From Rhizobacter sp. AJA081-3 (GTDB taxonomy: Bacteria; Pseudomonadota; Gammaproteobacteria; Burkholderiales; Burkholderiaceae_C), in contig NZ_CP059067.1 in the NCBI RefSeq assembly GCF_017795745.1, positions 2,542,001 to 2,606,000 of the forward strand: a stretch of DNA of 64,000 nt, read 5' to 3'. The position numbers were made by a program, and so were the translations under genes. Below, one piece after another: positions 13,058 to 49,704 of this stretch. The notes beneath the pieces are model-generated. The model saw nothing but the letters and a program-made list of their open reading frames with translations. It did no database searches and was not told where the DNA came from. Within the stretch, counting starts at the first letter, position 1. Each line of letters starts with the position of its first letter.

Positions 13058-13083
13058 GCGTGTTCTCCTCGGTCCACCAATGA

Positions 13084-13106: not shown

Positions 13107-13127
13107 CGTCCGGACGTCGCGCCGTGG

Positions 13128-14701: not shown

Positions 14702-14777
<76 letters not shown>

Positions 14778-14786
14778 CACGAATCC

Positions 14787-14818
14787 AGGGGCCGCCAGTG
14801 AGCGGCCCCTGACATTTT
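14787..14818 (+). terminator. Rho-independent terminator of tRNA-Ala
   Basis: AGGGGCCGC (14787-14795) pairs perfectly with GCGGCCCCT (14802-14810) around a six-base loop, followed by GACATTTT. It begins ten bases after the tRNA end. Confidence 0.85.
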
Positions 14819-16443: not shown

Positions 16444-16460
16444 GCCGGTGGGCATCGTGA

Positions 16461-23067: not shown

Positions 23068-23072
23068 GCGCA

Positions 23073-27069: not shown

Positions 27070-27146
27070 GGTATGCATGCAATTCGAGGGGGCCGATTGC
27101 TAGCGGCGCCTTGGACCATCCAGTGAACGCGGCTCTATCAGCACCG

Positions 27147-27578: not shown

Positions 27579-27593
27579 GGCCGGCTCACCGCC

Positions 27594-30457: not shown

Positions 30458-31271
30458 GTCGCGTCGGGATGTCGTGCGCGCCGGCCGGGATCGGGTCGAG
30501 TATTGGGCTGCGACGGGTGCTGGGTTTGCGCTAAAGGGCAGTAGAGCACTTGGTGCATCGGAAGGATCTCGCGCCGCGCAGTTGGCCACCGCCCTCGGTG
30601 GCTTGCTGGCCGAAGCCGGCTCAGCCTCCGAGTCCGCGAGCACGGCCTGCGCGGCCGATGTCGTGCTCGAATCGGCCTGGTTGCCCGTGGTCTTGCTGGA
30701 CACCGGCCGTGAGCTGTGGCGGCCGGCGCAAGTAGAGGCCCTATTGCGCCATCGGCTGGCTCGCGTCTACGACGAGCGTGGCGATGCCGTGGCCGGATGG
30801 GAGTTGAGTATCGACCATCGTGCGGGTGATGCACAAGGGCTTGGGTTCGGGCTCTCGCCCCTGGTGAAGTCGGCCGTCGTGAGCGCGGTCGCCGCTTCCG
30901 GATGCACGATGACGTCCATCCAGCCGGCGGTTCAGTGGGGGCGGCAACGCCATAGGCAGCGGCGCGAGGGCTGGTGGGTCTGGTTGGAACAGGACCGGGC
31001 CATCGTGAGCCACCTCGAAGCGGGCCGCATGACGGCGATGAATCCCGCCGCGGCTTTGCCCTCGGACCACGCCACGTGCCTGGCGATGCTGCGAATCGAG
31101 CGACTGCGGTTGGGCATCGAGAAGGATGATGTGGGTGGCGTTGTCGCGGGCTGGCAGCAAGACTTTGAGCTCACACCTCAGAGCGGATTGGCCTGGTCCG
31201 GGCTCGAGGCGCAGGCCGCTGCTGCCCGAGGTTCCGTTGCCTCTGCGATGCCGACCCGGAGTGCAGCATGA
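30444..31271 (+). CDS. GspL/PilM-like cytoplasmic assembly protein
   Basis: 275 residues from GTG 30444, with GAGGAGG six bases upstream and inside the end of gspE. No transmembrane helix is evident. The order ADVVLESAWLPVVLLDTG, LWRPAQVEALLRHRLARVYDE, WELSIDHRAGDAQGLGFGLSPLVKSAVVSAVAASGCTMTSIQPAVQWG resembles the actin-like fold of PilM and the cytoplasmic part of GspL. Similarity is weak, and the assignment rests mainly on position between gspE and PilN/PilO-like genes. It would link the ATPase to the inner-membrane subunits. Confidence 0.65.
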   Translation: MWPFESRRDVVRAGRDRVEYWAATGAGFALKGSRALGASEGSRAAQLATALGGLLAEAGSASESASTACAADVVLESAWLPVVLLDTGRELWRPAQVEALLRHRLARVYDERGDAVAGWELSIDHRAGDAQGLGFGLSPLVKSAVVSAVAASGCTMTSIQPAVQWGRQRHRQRREGWWVWLEQDRAIVSHLEAGRMTAMNPAAALPSDHATCLAMLRIERLRLGIEKDDVGGVVAGWQQDFELTPQSGLAWSGLEAQAAAARGSVASAMPTRSAA

Positions 31272-31792
31272 GCGCCGCCACGATCGACTTCCTCCATCCG
31301 CGCCGAACGCCGTGGCTGGGTTGGGTCCTGCTCGTCGCTGGAACAGGCGCGCTGGTGCTGAGCCTGTGGGCGGACCAGCGATGGACCGCGCAGCGCGCCG
31401 AGTTCGAAGCCGCCAAGCGCCAGCGTGAAGAGGCGACCCAGACCGCACGTGCACTAGCCGACAGGCCTGTGCCGCTGACGCCGCAGGACCTGCGCATGCG
31501 CGCGGTCGCACCACAACTTCGCCAGCCCTGGCTGCCGTTGCTGCGTGTGGTGGAGAACGTGACCGAGCCGCCGATTTTCCTGTTGGCCATGACGGTTGAT
31601 CCAGTCACGGGCTCGGTTCGCCTGGACGGCGAGGCGCCGGGCTTTGCAGAGGCGCTCGCCTACTCGCAGGCCTTGCGCAATGACGATGTGCTCGCCCACG
31701 CGCAGCTGCGCTCGCACGACGTCGTCGCCGACCCGAACTCGAGCCGGCAGGCGGTCCGCTTCAGCATCGCTGCCGAATGGATCGCGAAATGA
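31268..31792 (+). CDS. PilN-like (GspL C-terminal-like) inner-membrane protein
   Basis: 174 residues. One N-terminal membrane helix (PWLGWVLLVAGTGALVLSLWA) is followed by a coiled-coil segment (RWTAQRAEFEAAKRQREEATQTARAL) and a ferredoxin-like periplasmic domain (LPLLRVVENVTEPPIFLLAMTVDPVTGSVRLDGEAPGFAEALAYSQAL). This is the architecture of PilN and of the GspL membrane/periplasmic part. It overlaps the preceding gene by four bases and the next by four. Confidence 0.68.
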   Translation: MSAATIDFLHPRRTPWLGWVLLVAGTGALVLSLWADQRWTAQRAEFEAAKRQREEATQTARALADRPVPLTPQDLRMRAVAPQLRQPWLPLLRVVENVTEPPIFLLAMTVDPVTGSVRLDGEAPGFAEALAYSQALRNDDVLAHAQLRSHDVVADPNSSRQAVRFSIAAEWIAK

Positions 31793-32367
31793 CCTCCTGG
31801 ACGCCCACGATCAGCTGGCGTCTGCGGGTGGCTGGGGCACGCCTGCAGCAGCAGGCCGGCCTGGCCGGGCTGCTCGGCATCGGCCTGTTGGTACTGGCGG
31901 TGGCCAAGGGCGCCACAGCCTGGCGACTGCACGAGCAGTTCCTGACCGAAGCCGAGCAAGCTGCGCGCACCACGACAGCCGCTGCGTTGGCTTCACCCGT
32001 CGACAAGCGCGCCGAAACCCCAGTGGCTCGCACTCGCTGGCCGCTCGCGCAAGACGTGCCCACGCTGCTGTCTCGGCTGGAGCGCGCGGCGGTCAAAGAA
32101 GGTCTGGGCTGGCCGCAGGCGGACTACCGGATCAACCCGGCCACTGCAGAGTCTCCAGCAAGTCTGGAAGTCCGCTGTGCGCTGAAAGGGCCGTATCCGA
32201 ACATCCGCAGCTTCTTGACGGCAGCGTTGCTGGACACGCCCACTCTGGCGGTGCGGGAGTTCAACCTCAGCCGTCCGAGTGCGGACACACCGATTGTCGA
32301 AGCCAAGCTGTCCTTCGTGGTGTACCTAGGCGGCGCTGACGAGACTTCGGGCGAGGCTCCCAAATGA
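31789..32367 (+). CDS. PilO/GspM-like inner-membrane protein
   Basis: 192 residues from ATG 31789, which overlaps the previous stop (ATGA). A single N-terminal membrane helix (GLAGLLGIGLLVLAVAKGATAW) is followed by a helical stalk and a small alpha/beta periplasmic domain (DVPTLLSRLERAAVKEGLGWPQADYRI, then LEVRCALKGPYPNIRSFLTAAL). This fits PilO or GspM, the partner of the PilN/GspL-like protein in the inner-membrane complex. Family assignment rests on topology and order, not on strict motifs. Confidence 0.62.
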   Translation: MTSWTPTISWRLRVAGARLQQQAGLAGLLGIGLLVLAVAKGATAWRLHEQFLTEAEQAARTTTAAALASPVDKRAETPVARTRWPLAQDVPTLLSRLERAAVKEGLGWPQADYRINPATAESPASLEVRCALKGPYPNIRSFLTAALLDTPTLAVREFNLSRPSADTPIVEAKLSFVVYLGGADETSGEAPK

Positions 32368-32963
32368 AGGAGCGCCGCCTTCAGTTCTTGTTGCTTGTGC
32401 TCGTTGCATTGCTCGTGCTGCGCTGGTGGAGCCCGCCGGGTGGCACCAGCGAGGTGGTTCAAGCCGTGGAGCGCCCTGCGGCCAGCCAGTCGAGTTCTCA
32501 GGTGAACCTGAATGCGGCTCCATCGGCCACCTCGAACCGCCCGCTGCCGGATGACCTGTCTTCAGGCACCCGGTCTGCCGAAAGCACCGAGCCGCGCAAC
32601 GCCTTCGCAGCGCGGGTACCGCCGCCCCCACCGGCACCTCCACCTCCCCCCCCTCAACCGCGTGTGGCCGCCGTGACGCCCGTGGTGCTGGCGCCGCCTC
32701 CGCCACCTCCGGTGGATCCCACGCCGCCCCCGCCGCCGCTGCAGGTCATCGGCACCTGGAAGGATGAGCGCGGCGCCAGCGTCTTCATCGCCGGGCCGCG
32801 GGGCGTGATGCAGGCGCGCGCCGGCGATACGCTGCTCACCGAGTACAACGTGACCCAGATCTCCGCGCAGCAGGTCCTGCTCAGGCACCTGCCCACGAAC
32901 CGCGATCTCTCGCTGGCCGTGCCCGCGGCTACCGCACCGACTCCGAGGGCAACAGGCCTGTGA
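32364..32963 (+). CDS. GspC/PilP-like periplasmic linker protein, Pro-rich
   Basis: 199 residues. N-terminal membrane anchor (LQFLLLVLVALLVLRWW), then a Ser/Pro-rich linker with three polyproline runs (about residues 90-135). A C-terminal beta domain (LQVIGTWKDERGASVFIAGPRGVMQARAGDTLLTEYNVTQISAQQVLLRHLPT) resembles the homology region of GspC and PilP that contacts the secretin. It sits directly before the secretin gene with a four-base overlap, as expected for that role. Confidence 0.68.
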   Translation: MKERRLQFLLLVLVALLVLRWWSPPGGTSEVVQAVERPAASQSSSQVNLNAAPSATSNRPLPDDLSSGTRSAESTEPRNAFAARVPPPPPAPPPPPPQPRVAAVTPVVLAPPPPPPVDPTPPPPPLQVIGTWKDERGASVFIAGPRGVMQARAGDTLLTEYNVTQISAQQVLLRHLPTNRDLSLAVPAATAPTPRATGL

Positions 32964-35026
32964 CTTCACTCCATCCCCACCGCCGCCACCCACCGCGGCG
33001 CCGCTCCGCAAAGCGAAGCCTGCTCCTGACCGGGCTTGCTCTCGCGCTGGCCGGCTGCGCCGGCATGCAGTCCTATCGCGAAGGCCAGTCGGAGCTCGCC
33101 AAGGGCAAGCTCGAACCTGGGATCAGCAAGCTCAAGCAGGCGGTGGAACAGGATCCGCAGAACGTCGAGTTCCGCCGGGCCTACTTCACCGAGCGAGAGC
33201 AGGCGATCAACGGTCTGTTGCAGCAGGCCGAGGTCGGCATGGAGTCCGGGAGCTTCGACGCTGCGCGGGCCGCCTATCAGCAAGTCTTGCGGCTGGACGC
33301 TGCGAACGCGCGCGCGTTGGGCGGCGCGAATCGGGTGGACGTGGCGCAGCGCCAATGGAGCGCGATCGACGCGGCGGTTGCCTTGGCTCGCAATGGCGAC
33401 ACCGACAACGCCATCACCAAGGTTCGGCAGGTGATCTCCGAGAACCCGAACCACAGCCGTGCCAACCAGTTGCTCAAGCAGCTGATGCGGCAGCAGGCCG
33501 ACCGGACGGGCAAGGAGCTCGGCATCTACCCCAAGCTGAAAGCTGCCTACCGCACGCCGGTGAGCCTGAGCTTCAGCAACGCTCCGTTGCTGCAGGTCTT
33601 CGATTCCCTCAAGGTGGCCTCGGGGCTCAACTATGTGTTTGACAAGGAAGTCCGCCAGGACCTGCGCGTCACGCTGTCGGTGAACAACAAGCCCGTGGAG
33701 GACATTCTTCGCCTGCTGCTGGCCACCAATCAACTGGAGCGCCGGATCCTCGACGAGGACACGCTGCTCATCTACCCGAACACACCGGCCAAGGCAGCCG
33801 AGTACCGGGAGATGGTCGTGCGGACCTTCTATCTGAGCAACGGCGAGGCCAGCAAGGTCGCAGGCTTGCTGCGCACCATCGCAAAGGTGAAGGATGTGGT
33901 CGTCGACGAGAAACTGAACCTGATCGTCGTGCGCGACAGTGCTGAGGTCATCCGCCTGGCCGAGAAACTGATCGCCGCCCAGGACATGGCCGAGCCGGAG
34001 GTGATGCTGGAACTCGAGGTGCTCGAGGTCAGCGTCAACCGGCTGCTGGAGATGGGGATCAGCTGGCCATCCTCGGTGTCGGCGAGCGTGTCCGGTGCGG
34101 CGGGTGTCGCAGGCCAACTCACCTTGAACGAGTTGCGCAATCGCACCTCCGACATGGTGAAGTTGCAGACAAACGACCCGCTGATCGCAGCCCAGCTGCG
34201 CAGCCAGAAGGGCAGTGCCAATCTCCTGGCCAACCCGCGGGTTCGAGTGCGCAACAAGCAGCCGGCCAAGATCCTGATCGGCGAGCGGGTGCCGGTGTTC
34301 ACCACGACCGCCACCGCCAACGTGGGGACATCGGAGTCGGTCAACTATCTGGACGTGGGCCTGAAGCTGGAGATCGAACCCACGGTGTCGCTTGACGACG
34401 AGGTGTCGATGAAGCTGGCGCTGGAGGTGTCCAACATCCTCGAGACGATCACGCGCGCCAGCGGCACGCAGGCCTACCGGCTCGGCACCCGCAACACATC
34501 GACCACGCTGCGCGTGCGAGATGGCGAGACCAACATCCTTGCCGGGCTGATCCAGCGCGACGAGCGGCGCTCGAACACCGGGATTCCGGGTCTGAACGAA
34601 GCTCCGCTGATCAGCAAACTCTTCGGTGCAGCGCAGGACAGTGACAGCCGCACCGAGATCGTGCTGCTGGTGACCCCGCGCATCGTGCGCAACATTGAGC
34701 TGCCGGGGGTAGGACTGCAGGAGTTCCTGTCGGGCACGGATGCGTCGACAGGCGCAGCTCCGATTCAGTTGGGGACACCGGGTGCGCGACAGAACCCTGT
34801 GCCGACCGGCATGCCGCCAGGCTTCGCTCCGGGAACTGTCCCTCCGCCCGTGCCGATGTTGCAGCCGCCCGGCGGCATTCCGCAGTCGGGCGCTTTTCCG
34901 ACGACAACGCCGCTCCCACCGTCGGCCTTGCCGCCTGGCGTCCAGCCCATACCGCCGACTGGTATTCAGCCTCCGGCTTCCCCCGTGTTTACGGCGCCCC
35001 CGTTGGTGCCGACCTCGCCGCGATAA
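32960..35026 (+). CDS. gspD: Type II secretion secretin GspD with N-terminal TPR-like region (lipoprotein)
   Basis: 688 residues, GTG start overlapping the previous stop. The lipoprotein signal SLLLTGLALALAGCAG puts the lipidated Cys near residue 33. Residues about 40-180 are TPR-like helices (ARAAYQQVLRLDAANARALGG, then AITKVRQVISENPNHSRANQLLKQL), unusual for GspD. A secretin N0/STN domain (VSLSFSNAPLLQVFDSLKVASGLNYVFD) and an N1-like domain follow. The C-terminal secretin gate region carries VRVRNKQPAKILIGERVPVFT, VGLKLEIEPTV and ETNILAGLIQRDERRSNTGIPGLNEAPLISKLFG. The end is a Pro/Gly-rich tail. It forms the outer-membrane pore. TPR-bearing secretins also occur in MSHA/T4P-like systems. 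Confidence 0.9.
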   Translation: MTSLHPHRRHPPRRRSAKRSLLLTGLALALAGCAGMQSYREGQSELAKGKLEPGISKLKQAVEQDPQNVEFRRAYFTEREQAINGLLQQAEVGMESGSFDAARAAYQQVLRLDAANARALGGANRVDVAQRQWSAIDAAVALARNGDTDNAITKVRQVISENPNHSRANQLLKQLMRQQADRTGKELGIYPKLKAAYRTPVSLSFSNAPLLQVFDSLKVASGLNYVFDKEVRQDLRVTLSVNNKPVEDILRLLLATNQLERRILDEDTLLIYPNTPAKAAEYREMVVRTFYLSNGEASKVAGLLRTIAKVKDVVVDEKLNLIVVRDSAEVIRLAEKLIAAQDMAEPEVMLELEVLEVSVNRLLEMGISWPSSVSASVSGAAGVAGQLTLNELRNRTSDMVKLQTNDPLIAAQLRSQKGSANLLANPRVRVRNKQPAKILIGERVPVFTTTATANVGTSESVNYLDVGLKLEIEPTVSLDDEVSMKLALEVSNILETITRASGTQAYRLGTRNTSTTLRVRDGETNILAGLIQRDERRSNTGIPGLNEAPLISKLFGAAQDSDSRTEIVLLVTPRIVRNIELPGVGLQEFLSGTDASTGAAPIQLGTPGARQNPVPTGMPPGFAPGTVPPPVPMLQPPGGIPQSGAFPTTTPLPPSALPPGVQPIPPTGIQPPASPVFTAPPLVPTSPR

Positions 35027-35028
35027 GG

Positions 35029-35529
35029 ATGGGGCGGATCGTGAGTGGACGCAGCAGAGCGCGAAGCAGAGGCTTCTCGCTGGTCGAGTTGCTGGTCGTC
35101 GTCGCGATCATGTCGGTGCTGGCCAGCATCGGCATGCCTCTGGCCGAGTTGTCGAATCGGCGCGGCAAGGAGGAAGAACTCCGGCGGTCGCTTCGGGAGA
35201 TCCGCACCGCCATCGACAGCTACAAGCGCATGGTCGACAGCGGACGGATCGCAAGAGATGTAGGCGCCTCGGGTTATCCGCCGAATCTGGACGTGCTGGT
35301 GGACGGAGCTGTGGATGCTCAGTCTCCCAGGCAGACCAAGATCTTCTTCCTGCGAAAGCTGCCGCGCGATCCCTTCGCGCCGGAGTCGATCACCCAAGCA
35401 GCCGAGAGCTGGGGCCTGCGCAGCTACGAGAGCCCACCGACCGACCCCAGGCCGGGCAAGGATGTATTCGACGTCTACTCCAAGGCCGAGGGCAGCGGGC
35501 TGGATGGCCTGCCGTATCGGAAGTGGTGA
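35029..35529 (+). CDS. Type II secretion pseudopilin (GspH/GspI-like)
   Basis: 166 residues. A 15-residue basic leader (MGRIVSGRSRARSRG) precedes FSLVELLVVVAIMSVLASIGMPLAE, with Glu5 present. The globular part has EELRRSLREIRTAIDSYKRMVDSGRIARDVGASGYPPNLDVLVDG and KIFFLRKLPRDPFAP, a GspG-like layout. Which minor pseudopilin it corresponds to cannot be decided. It begins two bases after the secretin stop. Confidence 0.85.
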   Translation: MGRIVSGRSRARSRGFSLVELLVVVAIMSVLASIGMPLAELSNRRGKEEELRRSLREIRTAIDSYKRMVDSGRIARDVGASGYPPNLDVLVDGAVDAQSPRQTKIFFLRKLPRDPFAPESITQAAESWGLRSYESPPTDPRPGKDVFDVYSKAEGSGLDGLPYRKW

Positions 35530-39578: not shown

Positions 39579-39981
39579 CGTTGCCGAGTGGAGTGCGCGA
39601 AGGCGAGTCGATAAGCTGAACGGCGCCCGAGGGCATGGCAGCGTCGCTGAGTCAAAGACCTGATGCCGGTCACTTGCGTAGCCTGGTGCTCATCACATTG
39701 CGAGAGCGTCACGGCAGCGATGGCAGCTCCAGCAGATCGATTCCCACGACCACTCCCCAGACAATGGGGCTCGTCTTGCTCGTCGGCACTCGCTGGCGGG
39801 ATTCGCAGGCCTGCCTCACGCTTCGGGCCCGCTCTCTGAGCCGACCCGGTTGGGTCGGGGGCTGGAGACCCGTTCGGTCGATCGTCGAGATGAACGGGAC
39901 GCGACTCGACGCCCGCCCGCCGACGGCCTTACCCCGCGAAACCGTTGACACCTCACTGAGCTTCGATGAATACTTACATAG
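39579..39981. other. About 0.4 kb gene-less upstream region of the RiPP cluster
   Basis: No convincing coding frame. It is the likely promoter region of the following gene cluster; no operator or clear -35/-10 pair could be fixed by eye. Confidence 0.4.
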
Positions 39982-40554
39982 ATGGCCATGCAGCTGTCCG
40001 CCACCGTTGCACACGCAGGTGACACGTCAGATGTGTGGCTAGGCAGCCCGGTAGTCCAAGTTTTCGACAACTACGTCGAGATGGAGGAACTGCGAACGGA
40101 AGTGCTTGCGCTGCATGACAGCTTGCTCCCTGCGGATGGTCGTGGTGCTGCCGTCTGGCACCTGCAGGACGAGGCGCCCGGCGCTGCGCCGCAGCCAATC
40201 CGTGCACTGGCATGGCGCATCTTCGCGGACGCTGTGGCGCGCGGAGTCCGCGCGATCGAGTACTGGTCCAACACGATCGGCGTGGGACACCAACTGCCGG
40301 CGCACATCGACAAGGACGAGGGGTTGTACCGCCGCAGTGGAGTGGTGGTTTCGCCGGTGCTGACGGCTGTCTACTACGCCGACGTCTGTGTATTCACTGG
40401 GGGTCAACTCGATGTTGAAGGAATATTGGTCAAGCCCCGACAGAATCGTTTGGTGATGTTTGACGGTTGTCTTTCGCACCAAGTCCGTCGCGTGAGGACA
40501 GGGGTCCGGCGGAGCTTGGTTCTCAACGCGTGGCGCTCGCCACCCAGCCCGTGA
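39982..40554 (+). CDS. 2-oxoglutarate/Fe(II)-dependent oxygenase-like protein
   Basis: 190 residues from ATG 39982 (ATG 39988 is also possible). The iron-binding triad of the 2OG-Fe(II) oxygenase fold is visible: HID (His108, Asp110) in LPAHIDKDEGLY, and distal His166 in DGCLSHQVRRV. Downstream basic residues in RTGVRRSLVLNAW could bind 2-oxoglutarate. Such enzymes hydroxylate Pro, Asn, Asp or Lys side chains. It lies 21 bases before the RiPP precursor gene, so precursor hydroxylation is a reasonable inference. Soluble, no signal peptide. Confidence 0.78.
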   Translation: MAMQLSATVAHAGDTSDVWLGSPVVQVFDNYVEMEELRTEVLALHDSLLPADGRGAAVWHLQDEAPGAAPQPIRALAWRIFADAVARGVRAIEYWSNTIGVGHQLPAHIDKDEGLYRRSGVVVSPVLTAVYYADVCVFTGGQLDVEGILVKPRQNRLVMFDGCLSHQVRRVRTGVRRSLVLNAWRSPPSP

Positions 40555-40575
40555 CTCGGGAGAAGGGACGAAACG

Positions 40576-41067
40576 ATGTCGACCTCCAAGAAGCAACCTC
40601 CCTCCAAGACAGCCGCATCCAAGAAGGCGGTCGCCAAAAAGGCGACCGCAGCCAAGAAGACTTCAGCTGCGGCGCCTAAGGCGAAACGGTTCACCGAGTA
40701 CGAAGAGCGCGAACGCGGGCACCGATACGCGAAGGTGATCGCGCGCGCCTGGGCCGACGAGAAGTTCAGGAAGCGACTCATGGACGAGCCCGCCGCGGTA
40801 CTCGGTGAATTTGACATTGCGGTGCCCAAGGATCACACCGTCAAGGTGGTCAGTGAAGCGCCCGCAACCAAAGGACGACGCGAGATTGTCTTCGTGCTGC
40901 CCGCCAAGCCGCGTGGGTGGATCGAACTGGAGTCTCGCTCGCTGACGGCTTCACCCAAGGACGACTGGCTGGACGGTGGTGAAGCGCAGTTGGCCAAAGC
41001 TAAGCCGAGGCCAAAACCAAAGCCCACTCCGTTTCCCTGCGCCAAGTGCTGGAATGGTTGCTGTTGA
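40576..41067 (+). CDS. RiPP precursor with nitrile-hydratase-like leader (NHLP) and Cys-rich core
   Basis: 163 residues. Residues 1-38 are a Lys/Ala/Ser-rich extension resembling histone H1 tails. Residues about 48-112 (YAKVIARAWADEKFRKRLM, EPAAVLGEFDIAVPKDHTVKVV, REIVFVLPAKP) match the nitrile hydratase alpha-subunit fold used as leader in the NHLP family. WLDGGEA at 131-137 contains a Gly-Gly (134-135), a candidate leader cleavage site. After it come a Lys/Pro-rich spacer and the end PFPCAKCWNGCC with four Cys (155, 158, 162, 163). GGAGAAGGGACG precedes the ATG. The azole-forming enzymes encoded next make a heterocyclised peptide product likely. No PCAT transporter-protease is local. Confidence 0.85.
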   Translation: MSTSKKQPPSKTAASKKAVAKKATAAKKTSAAAPKAKRFTEYEERERGHRYAKVIARAWADEKFRKRLMDEPAAVLGEFDIAVPKDHTVKVVSEAPATKGRREIVFVLPAKPRGWIELESRSLTASPKDDWLDGGEAQLAKAKPRPKPKPTPFPCAKCWNGCC

Positions 41068-41155
41068 TCGAAGTGTCTCGGTGCGCGCAGCACGGTCGGC
41101 GAGTTTGCCGCCTAGCTGCAGCGCGTCTTGACCCGGCGGCCAAACGCCAAGCAAC

Positions 41156-43411
41156 GTGTTGAAGGCACCTCGACTGCGGCCGGATCTGCGCGCACGCGTC
41201 GTGCCTGGGGAAGGAGTCGTTCTGGTCGACGGCGAGAGTTGTACGGTCCTACTTGATCCGGTGTCAGAGCGAATCGTGCCGCTGCTGGATGGGCGCCACT
41301 CTCCCGAAGATATCGCCGAGGCGATGTCCGACGAGTTGCCACTGGAGGAGGTTTATTTCGCGCTCCTCCAACTGGAGCAACAGGGCTATGTGTCCGAGTG
41401 CGCGCCGGAGATCTCCGATGACCTGGCCGCATTCTGGTCCGCCGGCGGACTCGACCCTGCGGAGGCTGTTGCGAGTACGGCACGCGCGGAAGCGCACTTC
41501 CTGACCCTGGGAGGTCTGGATTCGCAACCGGTGGAGGACGCACTGAGGGCAGCAGGAGTCCGCATCCACACGAAAGCGGCGTTCCAGCTCGTCTTCACCG
41601 ACGACTACCTCAACCCGGCGCTTGCCGAGATCAATGAGCAAGCACTGCGCACACGGATTCCGTGGCTCCTTTTCGGTCCTCTTGGGCGCAAGCTCTGGAT
41701 GGGGCCGCTGTTCCTACCGCACGAGGGAGCTTGCTGGGAATGCCTCGCCTTTCGACGCCGTTCAGCGCAATTCCTCGTGGATCTGGGACGCCCGGGCGCC
41801 CACCCAAGCCAACGCGGCGGCATGCTTCCTTCGACTCTTGCCGTCGCTGCCGATGCAGCCGCCCTCGAGGTGTTGAAGTTCTTCGCGGCGGGTGGCCGGA
41901 CACCGCTGCTGGATCGCCTCGTCACCTTCGACCTGCTTCGCACCGACATGCAGTCCCACGTCGTGACTCGCAGGCCGCAATGTACGAGTTGTGGATCTCC
42001 TAGCGTGTCCGCCAATCGGCCGCCACCGGCCCTTGTTTCGCGCGCGAAGGGCTTCACGTCCGACGGAGGCTTTCGCGTTGATACACCGAAGGCAACGCTC
42101 GATCGATACATGCGACACGTGAGTCCGCTGACGGGGATCGTCGATGCGATCGAACCCATTGGCAATCTTCCCGAAGAGATGCCAGCCGTGAACTTCCACG
42201 TTTTCACGGCTGGCCACAACTTCGCCTTTCAGTTCAAGAACCTGCGCGCCTTCGCGGAGAACATGCGCAGCCGAAGCGCGGGAAAGGGAATGACCGCCGA
42301 CCAGGCACGCGCCGGCGCGTTGGCAGAAGCGCTGGAACGGTACTCTGCGATCTTTCACGGTGACGAGCAGCGCGTGCGCGCGAGTTACCGCGCACTTGGG
42401 GAGCGCGCGATTCATCCCAATGCGTGCATGCTCTTCAGCGACCGTCAGTACGACGAACGTGAGCGCTTCGGACCGGGCAAGGACACATACAGTCAGCGCG
42501 TTCCGCTGCGTCTGGACGAACATGCGGAGATCGACTGGTCGCCGCTGTTCTCGCTCACCCGTCGCGAATGGCGCTACTTGCCAACGCTCTACCAATACTT
42601 TCCGTCGCAGCTCGGGCGGGGAGCGCAGCCATCATCCCCGTACTTCTATGCCGACTCCAATGGCAATGCTTCCGGCAACGTGCTCGAAGAGGCGGTCCTA
42701 CAAGGTTTCCTGGAGCTAGCCGAGCGCGATGCGGTGGCCATCTGGTGGTACAACCGCATGCGCCGAAGAGGGGTAGATCTCACGAGCTTCCGGGAGCGCT
42801 ACTTCCAAGAGTTCGTGGCAATGTACGAGAGCATTGGTCGGGAAGTCTGGGTCCTCGACATCAGCAATGACCTGCAGATCCCGGCATTCGCCGCCCTTTC
42901 CAGGTCGCGCCGGGGCCGCGAGGACATCGTGTTCGGCTTCGGCTGCCACCTCGACGCCAGGCTTGGCGTCTCGCGAGCGCTGACAGAGATGAACCAGATG
43001 CTCGCCTTGTCTTTTGGGGAGAACGAGCCGCAGGGTATTGCGCGAGGGCTTGACCTGGAGCTGAACGAGTGGTTTCGCACGGCGACACTCGAATCGGAGC
43101 CCTACTTGGTGCCGCTAAAGGACGTGCCGTGTGCCGACGGTGGAAGCTTCGCCGTCCCGTCGAGTACCGATCTACTGGATGACATTCGGCTGTGTCAGTC
43201 GCGTGTGGAGCGCCTGGGCCTGGAGATGCTCTTGCTCGAGCAGACCCGTCCCGACGTGGGCATGCCCGCGGTGAAGGTTGTCGTGCCGGGACTTCGGCAC
43301 TTCTGGCCGCGCTTCGCGCCAGGGCGGCTGTTCGATGTTCCCACCCAGCAGGGATGGCTCGCGCGCCGCTTGAGCGAGGACGAACTCAATCCTCGCCGAA
43401 TGTTCTTCTAG
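41156..43411 (+). CDS. Fused E1-like/YcaO TOMM cyclodehydratase
   Basis: 751 residues; GTG 41156, or TTG 41159. Residues about 1-90 resemble a RiPP recognition element (VDGESCTVLLDPVSERIVPLLDGRHSPEDIAEAM). Residues about 110-300 are an Ocin-ThiF/E1-like domain with zinc-type Cys pairs CWEC (near 194) and CTSC (near 277). From about residue 312 comes a YcaO domain with its ATP-site segments (GKGMTADQARAGALAEALERYSAIF; LEEAVLQGFLELAERDAVAIWWYNR). It should bind the precursor leader and convert Cys/Ser/Thr to azolines using ATP. It lies 88 bases after the precursor stop. The C-terminus NPRRMFF lacks the proline-rich ending common in azoline-forming YcaOs. Confidence 0.9.
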   Translation: MLKAPRLRPDLRARVVPGEGVVLVDGESCTVLLDPVSERIVPLLDGRHSPEDIAEAMSDELPLEEVYFALLQLEQQGYVSECAPEISDDLAAFWSAGGLDPAEAVASTARAEAHFLTLGGLDSQPVEDALRAAGVRIHTKAAFQLVFTDDYLNPALAEINEQALRTRIPWLLFGPLGRKLWMGPLFLPHEGACWECLAFRRRSAQFLVDLGRPGAHPSQRGGMLPSTLAVAADAAALEVLKFFAAGGRTPLLDRLVTFDLLRTDMQSHVVTRRPQCTSCGSPSVSANRPPPALVSRAKGFTSDGGFRVDTPKATLDRYMRHVSPLTGIVDAIEPIGNLPEEMPAVNFHVFTAGHNFAFQFKNLRAFAENMRSRSAGKGMTADQARAGALAEALERYSAIFHGDEQRVRASYRALGERAIHPNACMLFSDRQYDERERFGPGKDTYSQRVPLRLDEHAEIDWSPLFSLTRREWRYLPTLYQYFPSQLGRGAQPSSPYFYADSNGNASGNVLEEAVLQGFLELAERDAVAIWWYNRMRRRGVDLTSFRERYFQEFVAMYESIGREVWVLDISNDLQIPAFAALSRSRRGREDIVFGFGCHLDARLGVSRALTEMNQMLALSFGENEPQGIARGLDLELNEWFRTATLESEPYLVPLKDVPCADGGSFAVPSSTDLLDDIRLCQSRVERLGLEMLLLEQTRPDVGMPAVKVVVPGLRHFWPRFAPGRLFDVPTQQGWLARRLSEDELNPRRMFF

Positions 43412-43424
43412 TCGGACAGCAGAT

Positions 43425-44855
43425 TTGAAGGCACGTCACTCTCTGCGCTCCCACGTGGCCCGTGTTGCGCGTGAGCCGACAAGACTGTGCGCCAACCCAA
43501 GGCGGCGCGCAGAACTGGTGGAGGTGCTGAGCCTCATCGACCAAGAGGAGCCTCGACCGAAGCTGCTTCTGCGCGCCTTGGCGACGTTGCTACGCGGCGG
43601 TGTGCGGGCAGAGGAACTGGGCCCGTTGATGGCTCGGGCCGATCCGATCGAACTGGCGCGCCTGTTCTACATGATCGAATGGTTCGACGGCCGGGGCCTC
43701 CTCTGCAAGTCGGTTGAAGACCGTCGTGGCTTTCACGTCGCGATGGTGGAGCCGGTCGGCGCCCGACGTCTCCCAGAAGCGCCATTGACCGACGACACGA
43801 TGCTCGCGCTTTCGCCTTATGCGCTGGCAGCCCGGTGCGGCGAGACAATGGTTCTGGAGGCTGCGACCGGTACGGCGCGCATCCTGCTCGTGGAGCCGAA
43901 GTGTCTCTGGTTGTTCGGCTTACTCGCTGCTCCGACCAGCGCTGCCGATGTCATCGCCAAGGCCGATACGGCTCTCGGCAGAGCCGCCGTCATGGCTCTC
44001 CTGGGTTCAGCAGTCGGAGCTGGAATCGTGGAGCTCCTCGACGCGCAAACCGGCAACTCGCCAGCCGCGAACGCGTCGGATCAAGGTTGGGTTCTTCACG
44101 ACCTTCTGTTTCACGCGCGGAGTCGTGAAGGTTGGAACACCGCGCCATGTGGAGCAACCTACCGATTCCGCGGACAGACGGCCCCTTCTCCAGCGCTAAA
44201 GCAACTGTCTTCCGAGAGGGCGGTAGCCCTTCCGGCCTCTGCGCTGGTTGCAGGCTCCGAAAGCTTCCTGGCGGTGCTGGAGCGACGGCGCTCACTTCGG
44301 GAGGGCGAAGGCCCGATGACGCTGCAAGCGCTCGGTGACCTCCTGTACCACGCTGCTCGTGTGCGCAACATCTCGGTCGGGCCAGACGGCGGCGAGATCA
44401 CCGACCGACCCTATCCGAGCGCAGGTGCCTCATACGAACTCGAGATTCATGTTGTGGTCGGACGTTGCGCAGGTCTAGATCCGGGGATCTACACGCACGA
44501 TCCGGCCAATCATCGCCTCGTCTTCCCCACCGGTACCGCGAACGGAGCACAGTTTCTTGAAGACGCCAGGATCGCCTGCGGGGCTACTGCCGTACCCGAC
44601 GTACTGCTGGTCATCACGTCACGCTTCCGGCGACTGGCGTGGAAGTACGAGTCCATCGCCTACGCGCTGGCGCTCAAGAATGCCGGAGTACTACTGCAGA
44701 CACTTTGCTTGACAGCAGCGGCGCTGGACCTCGCAGCTTGCCCGGTCGGCAACGGCGATGGCCCGGCGTTCTGCGCGGCCACGGGCCTGGACTACTTCGA
44801 GGAGTCCCCGGTGGCCGAGCTGTCTCTGTACGGATTTCGGAGCGTGAAGGCGTGA
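43425..44855 (+). CDS. SagB-type azoline dehydrogenase (nitroreductase fold)
   Basis: 476 residues; the start is probably TTG 43425, 13 bases after the cyclodehydratase stop. The N-terminal half is diverged. The C-terminal half (about 270-476) carries the SagB pattern: FLAVLERRRSLREGEGPMTLQALGDLLYHAARVR, DRPYPSAGASYELEIHVVVGRCAGLDPGIYTHDPANHRL, then AWKYESIAYALALKNAGVLLQTLCLTAAALDLAACPVGNGDGPAFC. The FMN enzyme oxidises azolines to azoles in TOMM biosynthesis. Its stop overlaps the next start (GTGA), indicating coupling. Confidence 0.9.
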   Translation: MKARHSLRSHVARVAREPTRLCANPRRRAELVEVLSLIDQEEPRPKLLLRALATLLRGGVRAEELGPLMARADPIELARLFYMIEWFDGRGLLCKSVEDRRGFHVAMVEPVGARRLPEAPLTDDTMLALSPYALAARCGETMVLEAATGTARILLVEPKCLWLFGLLAAPTSAADVIAKADTALGRAAVMALLGSAVGAGIVELLDAQTGNSPAANASDQGWVLHDLLFHARSREGWNTAPCGATYRFRGQTAPSPALKQLSSERAVALPASALVAGSESFLAVLERRRSLREGEGPMTLQALGDLLYHAARVRNISVGPDGGEITDRPYPSAGASYELEIHVVVGRCAGLDPGIYTHDPANHRLVFPTGTANGAQFLEDARIACGATAVPDVLLVITSRFRRLAWKYESIAYALALKNAGVLLQTLCLTAAALDLAACPVGNGDGPAFCAATGLDYFEESPVAELSLYGFRSVKA

Positions 44856-46012
44856 GTCTCTCCTGGCCACCGCTGCCGGTGACCTTGCGTTCGATCAGAC
44901 GCCAGACCGCGACCGGCCTGACGCCCGCGGCACTCCATTCGCCAACCCCTCAATTGTTTTCCGGCCATTGCGCGGGCTGGCCGCTCACACGCGAACTGTC
45001 GGCGAGACGGCTCGACCTGACCAAGATCGCGTACCTGAGCGAGCTCAGTGGGCGTCAGCGCATTCAGTTCACCTACCTCCCGCCGGCAATGGCCGGAGAC
45101 CTTGGCTGCGCGCCCAACGGACGTCCCAACGTGCCGTATCTCAGCCATGAAGCCACACTGTCCGACTTCTTGCAAGGCATCGCAAGCTGCCTTCGCCATG
45201 CGGATGGCAGCGTTGCATACGCTCAGTCGCGACCCCTTCGATCCTTTCCCCGATTTGCAGGGATGCTCGGGTGCGACGAAGTTCTCGGCGATCTGCCGGA
45301 GGCAAGCCGCCGCCTTTGGCTTGGATCCGGCGGGCATGTGAATAACCTTCACTTCGATTGCTTCGCCAACTTCCTGTTCATGATTGCAGGGTACAAGCGA
45401 GTTTGCTTGTTCCCGCCGGACTCATTTGTGGAGCTGCGGCCGACACCGCCTCGCCGCGGCATCGGTGGTGCGACGGGTAGTCCAGTGAAGCTGCTGCGGC
45501 CACAAACCAAGGACATGGCCAGACTGCGGCGTCTCGCGCGCCGGGGTATGTACGTCGTGCTGCGTCCCGGCGACGCGCTGTTCATTCCTCCCAACTGGTG
45601 GCATCACGTCGAAGGACAGCGCCTCAACCTAATGGTGAACGCCTGGGTCCACGCGATCGAGCGGCCCACTCTAGGCTCGCTTGAAGATGGCTTGCAACGC
45701 ACGATTCGCGCGATGGCGGATATGCGGCCGACGGTGCGAATCAGCCTGAGGGATGTCGTGCGTCGAGCTTGCAAGGGCGAGCCCGCCTCGCAGGTTCTAA
45801 GGCAGGTTCCGACGGACATTGCAGTCGTCCTGGCCCCCATTCTGAAATCGATTGTCGACCTGCAGCTTCCTTCTGAATGGCGCTCATTCGCCGCCGCCGC
45901 CGCCGACTACTACTTGTTCACTGCGAGCGCAGATTCAAGGCAATGGGCCGAGATCGTAAGCTACGCAATCGAGCGGAATGCGGGCGAGCGCTTCATTTCC
46001 CAGGAACTATGA
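44852..46012 (+). CDS. Cupin_8/JmjC-like oxygenase, RiPP cluster copy 1
   Basis: 386 residues from GTG 44852, overlapping the SagB stop. The central domain has the JmjC/cupin-8 iron site: HFD (His167, Asp169) in NNLHFDCFANFLFMIAGYKRVCLFPP, and a distal His in DALFIPPNWWHHVEG (251/252). Members hydroxylate protein side chains using 2-oxoglutarate and Fe(II). The N-terminal LFSGHCAGWPLTRELS, then GRQRIQFTYLPP block fits the FIH-like subgroup. The C-terminal 120 residues are helical. With a second cupin-like gene and a 2OG oxygenase in the same cluster, tailoring of the precursor is the likely role. Confidence 0.82.
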   Translation: MSLSWPPLPVTLRSIRRQTATGLTPAALHSPTPQLFSGHCAGWPLTRELSARRLDLTKIAYLSELSGRQRIQFTYLPPAMAGDLGCAPNGRPNVPYLSHEATLSDFLQGIASCLRHADGSVAYAQSRPLRSFPRFAGMLGCDEVLGDLPEASRRLWLGSGGHVNNLHFDCFANFLFMIAGYKRVCLFPPDSFVELRPTPPRRGIGGATGSPVKLLRPQTKDMARLRRLARRGMYVVLRPGDALFIPPNWWHHVEGQRLNLMVNAWVHAIERPTLGSLEDGLQRTIRAMADMRPTVRISLRDVVRRACKGEPASQVLRQVPTDIAVVLAPILKSIVDLQLPSEWRSFAAAAADYYLFTASADSRQWAEIVSYAIERNAGERFISQEL

Positions 46013-46782
46013 GCGAAGTCAAAATGCCCGAGCCGACGTGGCAACGAACGCTGCAGCTTCACTGGGAACGCCGCCCTGTGGTGCTACCTGCTCGGGACAC
46101 GCTGGTCTCGCCTCGAGCGCTGTTCACCATCGCCTGCGAACTCGGCGCGCGCTGCCCGCAAGATGGCCCGCCAAGCGATTTCGTTGTGCACTTCGCCAGC
46201 GGCCAACGTCGTGCCGTTGTCGCCCAGGCGCTGTTTCCGCGCCTGCAGGACCAAACGTTCAGTGGCTACGCCGCGCGCATTGAACGAGAGCTTTCGACGA
46301 GATCCTTCCTGCTCTACGTTCGAGGATTCGCCGAGCATGCGCCAGCGCTGCGTGAACGTGCCCTGAGCCGACTCCAATCCTTGCGCCAAGCCGGCTTGCA
46401 CTGGCGCCATCTGGAGGTAGAACTGTATATCGGCCGCTACGACTGGACGGCGATCGGCGTGCACCGCGAACGATGCGGGAACCTTCACGAGGTCATCCTG
46501 GGTCGAAAACAGCTGTTGTTCTGGCCTCCTCGAGTGCTTGCTGCTCGCGGTGATCGACCAGAGTGCGCGCAACACGGCGAAAGCCGCCAGCGAGCGGTTG
46601 ATGCGGGCCTGCTGGATCGCGCATCCGTTTGCTGTCGGGCGCGCAGTGGCGAAACAATCTACTTTCCAAGCGGGCATTGGCACGTCGGGGCATCGCCGCG
46701 GCTCAGCGCGGCGGTCGACCTCGCGCTCTACGGGATCGGGAGCTCACGGCCTGGCAGGCCTTTGAAAGATTCGACGCGGTGA
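46009..46782 (+). CDS. Cupin/JmjC-like protein, RiPP cluster copy 2
   Basis: 257 residues from ATG 46009, overlapping the previous stop (ATGA). It keeps the fold of the preceding protein: RTLQLHWERRPVVLP, then WTAIGVHRERCGNLHEVILGRKQLLFWPP, and SGETIYFPSGHWHVGASP. The metal-site HxD is replaced by HxE (His152, Glu154). Distal His is present in SGHWHVG. It may be active with a Glu ligand or may be a non-catalytic partner of copy 1. Its stop overlaps the next gene's GTG. Confidence 0.72.
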   Translation: MSEVKMPEPTWQRTLQLHWERRPVVLPARDTLVSPRALFTIACELGARCPQDGPPSDFVVHFASGQRRAVVAQALFPRLQDQTFSGYAARIERELSTRSFLLYVRGFAEHAPALRERALSRLQSLRQAGLHWRHLEVELYIGRYDWTAIGVHRERCGNLHEVILGRKQLLFWPPRVLAARGDRPECAQHGESRQRAVDAGLLDRASVCCRARSGETIYFPSGHWHVGASPRLSAAVDLALYGIGSSRPGRPLKDSTR

Positions 46783-48887
46783 ATACAGAGATCCTGCGTC
46801 GGCCACAGCGGCGCCGATTCGGATACCTGGAGGCTGAGAGGGCCGGCCCGCTGGTCAGCGAACTCGAGGAGTGCGGTCCGGTGGCCGTCACTGACCTGAC
46901 GCTCGGTCCCGCGCGGGGGCACCATGTTGCGCGGGAGATTGCCGAGCAACTGGGCGTGTCGCTGCCGGACCTAGGTCATCAGGCGACGGACGATTCAACG
47001 CAGAACATCGAGGATGAACTGCACGGGCATGTCGGCCGTCGTGCCGCCTTCGCTCTCGCCGAGAGCTTGGCCGAGCCCTTGCGACGCGGTCGTTTCTGGG
47101 TCGTCGTGCTGGCACCGCTCGCCGAGGCGACATGGGGCGACGCGAACCTCGCGCTTATCGAGTTGCTGGCCGACATGTTGCGAGCGAGCGTTCCGCGCGT
47201 GGTGATCGTGCGACTTGCTTCGGTTGCGATGGCGCCGGTTCCCGCACACTGGACCTTGCTGGAACATCGATTGCGACGCACCCTGGAGATGCCTGTGGAA
47301 GAACAGGTGGCCAACCGAAATAGGTTCTCGCCTGGACTGCTCCCTCTGGGAGCAGCAGTCGTTCGGTCCGGTGGGGTTGTGACGTTCCGAACCGCATTGG
47401 GTGCACGGTTCATCGAGATGTGCCATCGTCCGCAGCGACAGGAAAGCACGCGAAGGCCTGCGTCCGTGGCCACGCGCCTGCAGTCTGCCGAGGATGCTGC
47501 GGTACAGGGAGATTTGGCCTTTGCCATTCACCGGGCAGAGACTGCGTATCGTCTTGCCCGCGGCGAAGAGCGTCGCGCCACAGTCCTCTATCCACTGCAG
47601 ATCTACCGCATCCGTGCCGCCCGATTCGAAGAAGCTGCTCGAGCGGTGTTTCCGTTCGTGGGGATTCGTCCCGAGCTTCTCCGGCAATTGCTTGGTTGCA
47701 CGGGTTATGCCGCCGCCATGGCGGGCGACCCGATGCTTGCACGTTGGTTTGTCTGCGCCGCGAACCCGAGCATCGCCCCACATGAGTGGCCAGACCTTTT
47801 CTCGCGCAACTCGCTCGCGCTGGCGCTCGCGCGCGGCGGCGATGTCGCCGGTGCGCTCGATCTTTTGCAGAGCGTCCTCGCGGAAAGCCGCCAGGCCAGG
47901 ACAGTTCATCATCACCTGGTCGCGATCACTGCTCTAAACATCGCACGCGTCCATCGTCAGCTTGAGCACAAGGCCCGAACGGCCAACGCCGTTCAACTTT
48001 GGGCACGTGAGATCGAGGGCCACGCGACCACCTCAGAGCTCCTCTACGGCAATCTCTTTCGCGCGCGCATGGCCTTCGATGCTGATGCGAAGAACACCCT
48101 CATGCACTGGATGCGCGCAGCGTTGCACTGGGTGGCGCAGTCGCACCCGGAATGCATGGGATGGCGCGCAGCGTCGGCAATCCTGAGGCGCAGGGTAGAG
48201 GCCGCAGATGTCGACGCGATCTGTGATGTCTTCCAGTTGGAACTGATGCAGGCAGCGGAAGCGGCGGAAGTTCGGCCTGTGACCACCGACGGTGCACCCA
48301 CCTATGCGTACGTGCCGCGTATCTGCGATGCGGTTCCGCACCCGCTCACGGCGATTCAGGCGCCGGGCCTCGGGCTGCTTGCAAGTACCAGGCGCATCGC
48401 CCCTGCGTACGACACGACTGCGCACCGTCGCTTGCGTCGTACCTTGTCTGGACTGCTCGTCAGGCTCGTAGGCTCGAAAGCGGCCGCGCCGACGTACCTT
48501 CTCGATGCCGATCTCGGCTACGACCTTCCAAGCACGCTCAATGGGGTCGTCGATTCGGCCGCACGATGCGGTGCGCGGGCGTTAGTCCATGATCACACTG
48601 TGTTCGCTTTCGATGACGCGGCACAGCGCGCGTGGAGGAAGGGCGCCTTGGTTCAGTGGAGCGCCGCCGTGGACGATCTGCTTGTCCACCCTGGCGGCTC
48701 CACCGTGCGCTTCAAGCGAAACCGGCCCCCGCTGCTTCTTGATCGTCAGGAAGCTGATCTCGTCCGATCGGTGCGCTGGGGCGTGCGACTGCAAGGATGC
48801 GTTTCGCACACTGTCGAGCTTGCGCGCGAACTCGAACGGCTGGGCGTTCTTCGGCTGTACACCCCCGCCGGTGCGGCGGCAATTTGA
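46779..48887 (+). CDS. Unknown 702-residue protein of the RiPP cluster
   Basis: GTG 46779 overlaps the previous stop (GTGA), which fixes this start although the frame is open 50 codons further up. No membrane helix or signal peptide. The N-terminal third has a Rossmann-like alternation (FWVVVLAPLAEATWGDANLALIELLADML, then VPRVVIVRLAS) but no Walker A. The middle (about 270-470) is helical and TPR-like (AAVQGDLAFAIHRAETAYRLARG, ALARGGDVAGALDLLQSVLAESRQ). The end is mixed alpha/beta (TYLLDADLGYDLPSTLNGVVDSAARCGARALVHDHTVFAFDD). No family was recognised. Coupling to the oxygenase genes argues for a role in the pathway, for example as scaffold or regulator. Confidence 0.75.
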   Translation: MNTEILRRPQRRRFGYLEAERAGPLVSELEECGPVAVTDLTLGPARGHHVAREIAEQLGVSLPDLGHQATDDSTQNIEDELHGHVGRRAAFALAESLAEPLRRGRFWVVVLAPLAEATWGDANLALIELLADMLRASVPRVVIVRLASVAMAPVPAHWTLLEHRLRRTLEMPVEEQVANRNRFSPGLLPLGAAVVRSGGVVTFRTALGARFIEMCHRPQRQESTRRPASVATRLQSAEDAAVQGDLAFAIHRAETAYRLARGEERRATVLYPLQIYRIRAARFEEAARAVFPFVGIRPELLRQLLGCTGYAAAMAGDPMLARWFVCAANPSIAPHEWPDLFSRNSLALALARGGDVAGALDLLQSVLAESRQARTVHHHLVAITALNIARVHRQLEHKARTANAVQLWAREIEGHATTSELLYGNLFRARMAFDADAKNTLMHWMRAALHWVAQSHPECMGWRAASAILRRRVEAADVDAICDVFQLELMQAAEAAEVRPVTTDGAPTYAYVPRICDAVPHPLTAIQAPGLGLLASTRRIAPAYDTTAHRRLRRTLSGLLVRLVGSKAAAPTYLLDADLGYDLPSTLNGVVDSAARCGARALVHDHTVFAFDDAAQRAWRKGALVQWSAAVDDLLVHPGGSTVRFKRNRPPLLLDRQEADLVRSVRWGVRLQGCVSHTVELARELERLGVLRLYTPAGAAAI

Positions 48888-48909
48888 GACCCCTTATCGA
48901 GGGAAGATC

Positions 48910-49704
48910 ATGCCAAAGAAGACTATTGGACGGCCAACAATGCTCACGCGTGCCGAGTTCTCGCCGCTTGCTGGCGCTGAGCCACTCATTTTGAAGGCAT
49001 ATCTGACGGATGGGAAGACCGATGTGATCATTCGGGCGAACGATGTCCGGCGCGAGTGGATCACGCGGGATACCGATGGCAATGCCTACCGCTGCATTCC
49101 GATCAACATGGCTTCGAGCCTCGGTTGGAGCTTCTTGATGCCGTTTACGCTGACAGTGGTCTACGACGGCAAGCGAATGGCCATATCGGCCAGGAGCCGA
49201 CGAATCGACGCAACGCGTTTGGTCACCGACCAGTTCGGTGGCGGGATATTCACCTTCTACGTGGCCGTCATGTTTCGCTCGCCGCCTGGTCACAACCTCT
49301 TCGTGACCGGTCCCTTGAACGAGCCGCGCCGTGGTGCTTCGCCATTGAGTGGCATCGTGGAGACTGACTGGGTGGAGGTGAACTTCACCATGAACTGGAA
49401 GGTCACCGAGCTCAACCATCCGGTGACATTTCACAAGGGTGAACCCTTTTGCACATTCTTCCCATATCCCCGGCACTACGCCGAAAACTTTAGACCGGAG
49501 ATTCGCCTCCTTTCGGAGGAACCCGAGTTGCAGGTTCGCTACGAACGTTGGTTGTTTCACCGGCTGACAACGGAGTCACCAGAGGGGCAGTACGCACGCG
49601 GGGAGCACTACATCGATGCAGGCAGAGGGCCGTTTCCGGATCATCAACGGCGGATCCAGATGGAGGAGTTTCAATTGCGACGACAGCGCCGATCCTCCCG
49701 ATAG
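48910..49704 (+). CDS. DUF6065-like protein
   Basis: 264 residues from ATG 48910 with GAGGGA upstream, 22 bases after the previous stop. Soluble, mixed beta structure: REWITRDTDGNAYRCIPINMASSLGWSFLMPF, QFGGGIFTFYVAVMFRSPPGHNLFVTGPLNEPRRGASPLSGIVETDW, FTMNWKVTELNHPVTFHKGEPFCTFFPYPR. The order of these blocks recalls the DUF6065 family, for which I know no biochemical function. It is the last gene in the cluster with short spacing. A 0.74 kb gene-less stretch follows. Confidence 0.7.
   Translation: MPKKTIGRPTMLTRAEFSPLAGAEPLILKAYLTDGKTDVIIRANDVRREWITRDTDGNAYRCIPINMASSLGWSFLMPFTLTVVYDGKRMAISARSRRIDATRLVTDQFGGGIFTFYVAVMFRSPPGHNLFVTGPLNEPRRGASPLSGIVETDWVEVNFTMNWKVTELNHPVTFHKGEPFCTFFPYPRHYAENFRPEIRLLSEEPELQVRYERWLFHRLTTESPEGQYARGEHYIDAGRGPFPDHQRRIQMEEFQLRRQRRSSR

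Follow-up and report, generated by a model that had tools for sequence, protein, structure and literature searches.

NHLP-type TOMM clusters have been described by Haft et al. (2010) (PMC2887384) and Cox et al. (2015), and neither "cupin" nor "oxygenase" occurs as the start of a word in the main texts of these two papers. As far as the former sets out their gene content, and in the example carried by a plasmid of Nostoc C057, such clusters share with the operon analyzed here a nitrile hydratase (NHase)-like leader with Gly-Gly, a fused E1-like/YcaO protein, and SagB. In the Nostoc plasmid an NHLP exporter set adjoins, whereas our operon lacks one and has three oxygenase-like genes, a 702-aa orphan, and a DUF6065 gene; the cyclodehydratases have similar C-termini, ELNPIPMFF in Nostoc and ELNPRRMFF here. 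NHLP-Burk clusters (the BMA_0021/BMA_0022 family, also represented in Paraburkholderia PGU19) likewise pair an NHLP-like precursor with a fused YcaO protein, and according to PMC2887384 paired precursors can include one with a Cys-Cys end, which the precursor here also has. However, the PGU19 locus (L200) differs in its tandem precursors and kinase/cyclase fusion, and neither it nor locus L201 has a match to SagB or to the cupins of our operon. The azole-containing proteusin nostatin A, in the portion of its description considered (PMC11583998), resembles our operon in its NHLP-type precursor, its azoles (predicted here), and its azoline oxidase, but involves a LanM-like enzyme and an epimerase that are absent from the operon as described here; "cupin" and "oxygenase" are again never found as word starts in that paper. 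A Thalassospira marina plasmid cluster encodes relatives of the precursor (34 percent across 44 residues) and of the YcaO protein (40 percent), with a SagB-like stretch inside an enzyme annotated as cytochrome P450; positions 8508-15709 of this locus (L008) encode LanM, an NHLP/thiocillin-like precursor, YcaO, the P450-annotated SagB-like protein, and an S53 peptidase.

Hydroxylation of ribosomal peptides is known from other pathways. According to the sections consulted on the biphenomycin bip/pbs clusters (PMC12707348, PMC12257519), a JmjC/cupin-like hydroxylase tailors the RiPP precursor by hydroxylating Orn; these clusters use MNIO, B12 radical SAM, and arginase, with no YcaO in the gene list, and none of those three domains was detected among the eight proteins of our operon (E 0.1). 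The 2OG-Fe(II) oxygenase TsaJ of the thioamitide thiostreptamide S4 is reported, in the relevant part of PMC8153245, to hydroxylate the RiPP core; it belongs to pfam05721 and acts on His, in a product with thioamides as opposed to the azoles predicted here. YcaO-TfuA pairing for thioamides is stated in an abstract, and a YcaO-TfuA pathway with MNIO hydroxylation is outlined in a 2026 preprint; Pfam/NCBIfam scans (E 0.1) detected no TfuA domain among the eight operon proteins. A Synechococcus study presents, in the part consulted, YcaO/SagB clusters with TOMM/NHLP precursors and hypothetical P450 hydroxylation. Within the literature searched, the nearest precedent for NHLP combined with a cupin comes from sponge metagenomes (PMC9426513), for which the text consulted reports an NHLP domain alongside a cupin-4 enzyme in four gene cluster families; the cupin here is of the Cupin_8 family, and YcaO and SagB are not mentioned for the sponge families in that text. 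Among the papers searched, "cupin", "YcaO", and "RiPP" occurred together only in the sponge and Synechococcus studies. The unusual tailoring set pointed out in the initial annotation needs a correction: no counterpart of the whole set was found, but biphenomycin already provides a RiPP tailored by a JmjC/cupin enzyme, and NHLP with cupin-4 has been noted in sponges.

Gene content and predicted azole-forming enzymes

The window (the whole 64-kb stretch of DNA that was analyzed) lies on one contig of 5,402,301 bases. Eight genes at 39982-49704, all on the + strand, were recovered as ORFs with their translations and are listed here after a promoter-like site:

39945..39974, +, promoter-like TTGACA-18-AATACT, 10/12 matches, upstream of the first gene; only suggestive
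39982..40554, +, 2OG-Fe(II) oxygenase, 190 aa; PF13640; H108-x-D110 ... H166 ... R
40576..41067, +, NHLP-type precursor, 163 aa; PF02979, TIGR03793, GG and Cys tail
41156..43411, +, fused E1-like leader-binding/YcaO cyclodehydratase, 751 aa; PF02624, TIGR03604, TIGR03882
43425..44855, +, SagB-family dehydrogenase, 476 aa, TTG start; TIGR03605
44852..46012, +, first cupin, a FIH-like Cupin_8/JmjC protein, 386 aa; PF13621; H167-x-D169, K182, H251
46009..46782, +, second, divergent cupin, 257 aa; near-cut-off PF13621; H152-x-E154, K167, H223/H225
46779..48887, +, orphan protein with TPR-like middle, 702 aa; weak TPR_12 match
48910..49704, +, DUF6065 protein, 264 aa; PF19541; predicted dUTPase-like fold

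None of the eight frames has an internal stop, and in each the third-position GC exceeds the second-position GC. The intergenic distances in operon order are 21, 88, 13, -4, -4, -4, and 22 bases; this spacing suggests one transcript. The 4-base overlaps, which depend on the choice of GTG/ATG starts, run from the SagB gene through both cupin genes to that of the 702-aa protein, linking the tailoring genes to the azole genes. Domain calls come from Pfam/NCBIfam profile scans, in which the strong E-values lie far past chance and two scores lie near the cut-off. The frames, profile matches, gaps, and overlaps together bear out the tight eight-gene set proposed in the initial annotation. A simple codon-bias gene picker chose 6/8 of these frames, with antisense frames on the minus strand at the second cupin (46084-46683) and DUF6065 (48712-49560); these were rejected because the Pfam matches fall on the + strand frames. 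The region contains three promoter-like sites, against 1.9 +/- 1.3 in shuffled sequence, which is not above chance. A defense-system reading was also rejected: among the seven proteins scanned (five from the operon and two neighbors), the sole match was that of the oxygenase to two "2OG" models listed as CAS-associated.

The precursor gene is preceded by an SD-like sequence (gggagaaggga). Its product matches PF02979 (NHase_alpha; E 9.4e-13, 48.4 bits, cut-off 27.2), and TIGR03793 (leader_NHLP) with 48.1 bits (E 7.5e-13) in one scan and 49.2 bits in another, just under the cut-off of 50.9, in keeping with the NHLP-type precursor recognized in the initial annotation. A Lys/Ala-rich N-terminus is followed by a nitrile-hydratase-like leader, Gly-Gly at positions 134-135, and a 28-residue C-terminal tail, EAQLAKAKPRPKPKPTPFPCAKCWNGCC, which ends in CAKCWNGCC and includes four Cys, one Thr, and no Ser; the calculated pI is 10. 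The leader lacks the CxxCSC metal motif, whereas the genome's own nitrile hydratase alpha subunit has CTLCSC. That true alpha-subunit gene accounts for the second TIGR03793 match in the genome, which was rejected as another precursor, and a profile search of the genome (E 0.1) found no second NHLP precursor.

The fused protein matches PF02624 (YcaO) at E 3.1e-92, TIGR03604 with 246.7 bits (cut-off 219.25), and the leader-binding model TIGR03882 with 117.9 bits (cut-off 36.9); its N-terminus matches a DUF4423_like wHTH (24.9 bits, cut-off 24.1). Its CWEC and CTSC pairs are likely to form a Zn site. The gene is the sole YcaO gene found in the genome (E 0.001). The dehydrogenase matches TIGR03605 with 139.2 bits (cut-off 78.4). 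With cyclodehydratase and dehydrogenase both over curated cut-offs, and the precursor over one cut-off and slightly under another, the azole set claimed in the initial annotation (precursor, fused E1-like/YcaO, and SagB) is upheld at the sequence level.

Oxygenase-like proteins, the 702-aa protein, and DUF6065

The H-x-D/E...H triads are intact in all three neighboring oxygenase-like proteins. The first oxygenase matches PF13640 (2OG-FeII_Oxy_3) at E 6.5e-8 (33.9 bits, cut-off 27). The first cupin matches PF13621 (Cupin_8) over the cut-off (E 1.1e-32) and aligns with FIH, the hypoxia-inducible factor 1-alpha inhibitor (E 3.2e-14), over a span that includes the H-x-D, the GYKR lysine, and WWHH; K182 presumably occupies the 2OG-binding Lys position. 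The second cupin retains H-x-E and a distal His, and scores 27.1 bits against PF13621 (E 4.7e-6), just under the cut-off of 27.4; a search for solved relatives gave none that was convincing, the best being JMJD7 (E 0.16). Because of this sub-threshold score, we treat the JmjC pair as one firm and one tentative member; the "up to three hydroxylase-type enzymes" of the initial annotation stands with respect to the triads. The two cupins share no BLAST similarity (E 0.37), and a recent duplication was rejected. P4H-type enzymes act on Pro. FIH is described in abstracts as acting on Asn. By analogy, the oxygenase and cupin families suggest which precursor residues may be hydroxylated.

Relatives of the first cupin are weak and are present in 26/398 genomes of the phylum (own genome included) and in 19 plasmid records; the best-scoring other relative is 35 percent identical, with short stretches reaching 37 percent (genomes) and 39 percent (one plasmid). 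Searches of plasmids found no relatives of the first oxygenase and one weak match to the second cupin.

The sole domain signal in the 702-aa protein is a weak TPR_12 match under the cut-off (E 8.4e-4), which leaves it the unknown that it was taken for in the initial annotation. It was found in its own genome only among 399 genomes of the order and, among 398 of the phylum, in its own genome and as a 75-residue stretch in one other (E 4.3e-4), with no match in plasmids or viral contigs. A single-sequence structure model was unusable (pLDDT 35.1).

The DUF6065-like assignment was confirmed and refined: PF19541 is matched at E 4.8e-60, the match covering profile positions 1-195 of 236, and the protein is better seen, on its predicted structure, as a putative dUTPase-fold protein than as a plain unknown. 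Profile comparison sets its GIVETDW and KGEPFC opposite dUTPase motifs 3 and 4 (P 0.049, probability 1 percent); a second alignment gave P 0.18 and BLASTP gave E 0.46, and a Gly-rich C-terminal motif was not seen in DUF6065. A sequence search of the PDB returned nothing convincing. The family occurs in Alphaproteobacteria, in viral contigs (many matches), and inside the operon at 39982-49704; there was no match in phage records, and DUF6065 is named in no paper of the literature searched. In three phage loci, a DUF6065 gene lies directly after a dUTPase gene. A scan of 85/158 proteins encoded beside phage DUF6065, made for hydroxylase or RiPP genes, matched 57 families; the best 25 consist largely of DNA polymerase B, DNA methylase, dUTPase, ligase, and PhoH. 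In one locus (L081, 6242-7303, - strand), a DUF6065 protein carries a fused PqqD (RRE-like) domain at its C-terminus, with PqqD, HprK-related, and NTP_transf_5 genes close by, and in Sinorhizobium medicae (L043, 5439-8720) a DUF6065 gene is 9 bases downstream of an autotransporter beta-barrel gene.

Distribution, genomic setting, and possible export

YcaO relatives were listed at three loci of a species-representative collection (searched with six short peptide patterns, and so for close relatives only), in 21 plasmid records, and in 5/349 phylum genomes besides our own; a search of 59 other relatives, which included seven members of the genus, found none (E 1e-20). We examined 22 of these 29 loci (3/3, 14/21, and 5/5, respectively; one genome could be listed twice). 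At tblastn E 1e-3, a SagB relative was present in 10/22 and a precursor relative in 4/22, and 0/22 matched the oxygenase, the first or the second cupin, the 702-aa protein, or DUF6065, in a comparison that includes some short loci (5.2 and 12.9 kb) and in which distant cupins could escape the threshold. The azole set with up to three putative iron hydroxylases was thus not found in the other clusters examined, and the literature searches returned, among the matches listed, no characterized TOMM with this tailoring set, which agrees with the initial annotation in calling the set unusual. The comparison of cluster conservation that it had proposed leaves the tailoring genes without relatives at the 22 loci, and since no other cluster with the set was found, conservation of the operon is not demonstrable. 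Four loci (L012, L050, L051, and L052) are YcaO and SagB mini-clusters with a related Gly/Cys-rich precursor; a VOC-like gene is close by in L012 (annotated), L050, and L052 (judged by eye), and L051 and L052 have weak matches to the heterocycloanthracin model.

Two further features of the window bear on the setting of the operon:

14702..14777, +, tRNA-Ala (CGC), left edge of the accessory region holding the operon; genus collinearity ends nearby
27066..35529, +, T2SS/pilus-like operon (T2SSG, T2SSF, T2SSE, secretin, prepilin), upstream of the RiPP operon and counted outside it

The first 10 kb of the window have a GC content of 0.70-0.75, compared with 0.60-0.64 at 36-50 kb. In the four of six genus relatives having the left-flank gene that were compared, collinearity stops at 14787 (one, past the tRNA) and at 14591-14595 (three, ~110 bases before it). 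Integrase-like, RHS, and T2SS-like genes come next, and the window also has IS genes. Against the other genomes of the genus, the T2SS ATPase reaches at best 53 percent, the same similarity as to a paralog in its own genome, which marks the T2SS operon as probably accessory. Based on the GC content, the end of collinearity at tRNA-Ala, the integrase-like and RHS genes, and this probably accessory ATPase, the RiPP operon was probably acquired. No empty island site could be defined: beyond the points where collinearity stops, the following 18-19 kb of the relatives gave no further match of >150 bases to the host sequence, which was compared as far as 60 kb past the window. At E 1e-80, none of the seven other genus genomes matched the cytochrome bd-like gene at the right. 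The window also contains two tyrosine-recombinase-like genes (15495-16460, ~0.7 kb past tRNA-Ala, and 56123-57379), three consecutive RHS-repeat frames (17543-26825) with a 300-base repeat (19628, 22225; 81 percent identity) shared by the first two, and a 1317-residue frame (50398-54351) that had no Pfam or NCBIfam match at E 0.1.

None of the eight operon genes encodes an exporter, a protease, or a recognizable immunity protein, and the Pfam/NCBIfam scans of these genes gave no NHLP ABC exporter beside the precursor. The absence of transporter and protease reported in the initial annotation is hence true of the operon but not of the genome, which has two C39 matches (1.71 and 2.98 Mb). The one at ~1.71 Mb, a possible distant exporter, is a C39 peptidase/ABC exporter; the family that fits it best, at 524.7 bits against a cut-off of 853.3 that it does not reach, is the NHLP exporter TIGR03796. 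At ~1.712-1.716 Mb (L101, 4238-7978), a short Gly-Gly peptide gene (...SGGVV), an HlyD-like gene, and the C39 peptidase ABC exporter gene lie together, likely as a separate peptide export system. It is conceivable that the T2SS/pilus-like operon serves as the export route for the peptide.

Predicted pathway and its alternatives

We infer that the operon probably makes a hydroxylated, thiazole-containing ribosomal peptide of TOMM/LAP type from the NHLP-like precursor; judged from gene content, the TOMM-type assignment is very likely and hydroxylation of the product likely. The fused protein would bind the leader of the 163-residue precursor through its wHTH/E1-like part, as expected from the family. 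The YcaO domain would then cyclodehydrate some or all of the four Cys of CAKCWNGCC to thiazolines (-18 Da each), which SagB would oxidize to thiazoles (total -20 Da per ring). Side chains of the Lys/Pro-rich linker (KPRPKPKPTPFP) and/or the Asn of CWNG would be hydroxylated (+16 Da each) by the P4H-type oxygenase, by the FIH-like cupin, and perhaps by the second cupin. As a guess, the 702-aa TPR-like protein would organize the enzymes or bind the leader, and the DUF6065 protein, with its predicted dUTPase fold, might be a maturation, regulatory, or self-protection factor. A protease from outside the operon would be expected to cut at Gly134-Gly135 or beyond it. Of this scheme, the gene content, gene order, and triads are observed and the chemical steps are predicted. 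In its favor are the curated-model hits, the single YcaO gene, the leader without CTLCSC, the 4-base overlaps, the triads, the FIH alignment, the Nostoc-like C-terminus of the cyclodehydratase, and the precedents in biphenomycin, a thioamitide, and sponges. Counting against it are the lack of a second cluster with the tailoring set, the slightly sub-threshold scores of the precursor (TIGR03793) and the second cupin (Cupin_8), the missing exporter, protease, and immunity genes, a tail with four Cys, one Thr, and no Ser, promoter-like sites at chance frequency, and the antisense picks at two of the eight genes.

One alternative concerns the hydroxylation. An azole peptide may be made while one or both cupins are scaffolds or have a different substrate, leaving only the first oxygenase, or none, to hydroxylate; we give this a real but minority chance, given that the second cupin is divergent, falls below its cut-off, and has H-x-E instead of H-x-D, and that the first cupin has relatives in 26/398 phylum genomes (own included), whereas all metal-ligand positions of the cupins are kept and both genes overlap their neighbors by 4 bases. 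The fate of the product could also differ. That the whole Lys-rich 163-residue protein stays uncleaved in the cell as a modified protein or metal ligand, and is no secreted antibiotic, seems to us unlikely: the lack of a protease or exporter in the operon, the Lys/Ala-rich N-terminus, and the pI of 10 would fit it, but there is a Gly-Gly close to where the leader should end, a T2SS-like operon lies in the vicinity, and the genome has the C39 exporter of best family TIGR03796, though with its own adjoining Gly-Gly peptide.

It is rather improbable that the operon was imported and is now decaying or silent, perhaps with no product any more. Its place in an accessory region that begins near tRNA-Ala and holds RHS, integrase, and IS genes, the missing export genes, and the lack of YcaO relatives in the other seven genus genomes would suit such a history; what argues against decay is that all eight adjoining frames are open, keep their motifs, and have third-position GC above second-position GC, with no internal stops. 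At the speculative end, we think there is only a slim chance that the operon specifies an undescribed kind of peptide, in which a Pro/Lys-repeat, perhaps resembling proline-rich antimicrobial peptides and hydroxylated by the P4H-type oxygenase and the FIH-like cupins, precedes a C-terminal polythiazole, with a dUTPase-fold protein (DUF6065) of phage or nucleotide-related origin as its dedicated RiPP maturation or immunity factor.

For the preferred reading, a hydroxylated azole peptide, the 28-residue tail makes the predicted modifications directly checkable by mass. The predicted dUTPase-like fold offers a structural handle on DUF6065 and is the most transferable by-product of this analysis. 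Azole RiPPs hydroxylated by several non-heme iron enzymes, if true, would widen the chemistry that one leader directs.
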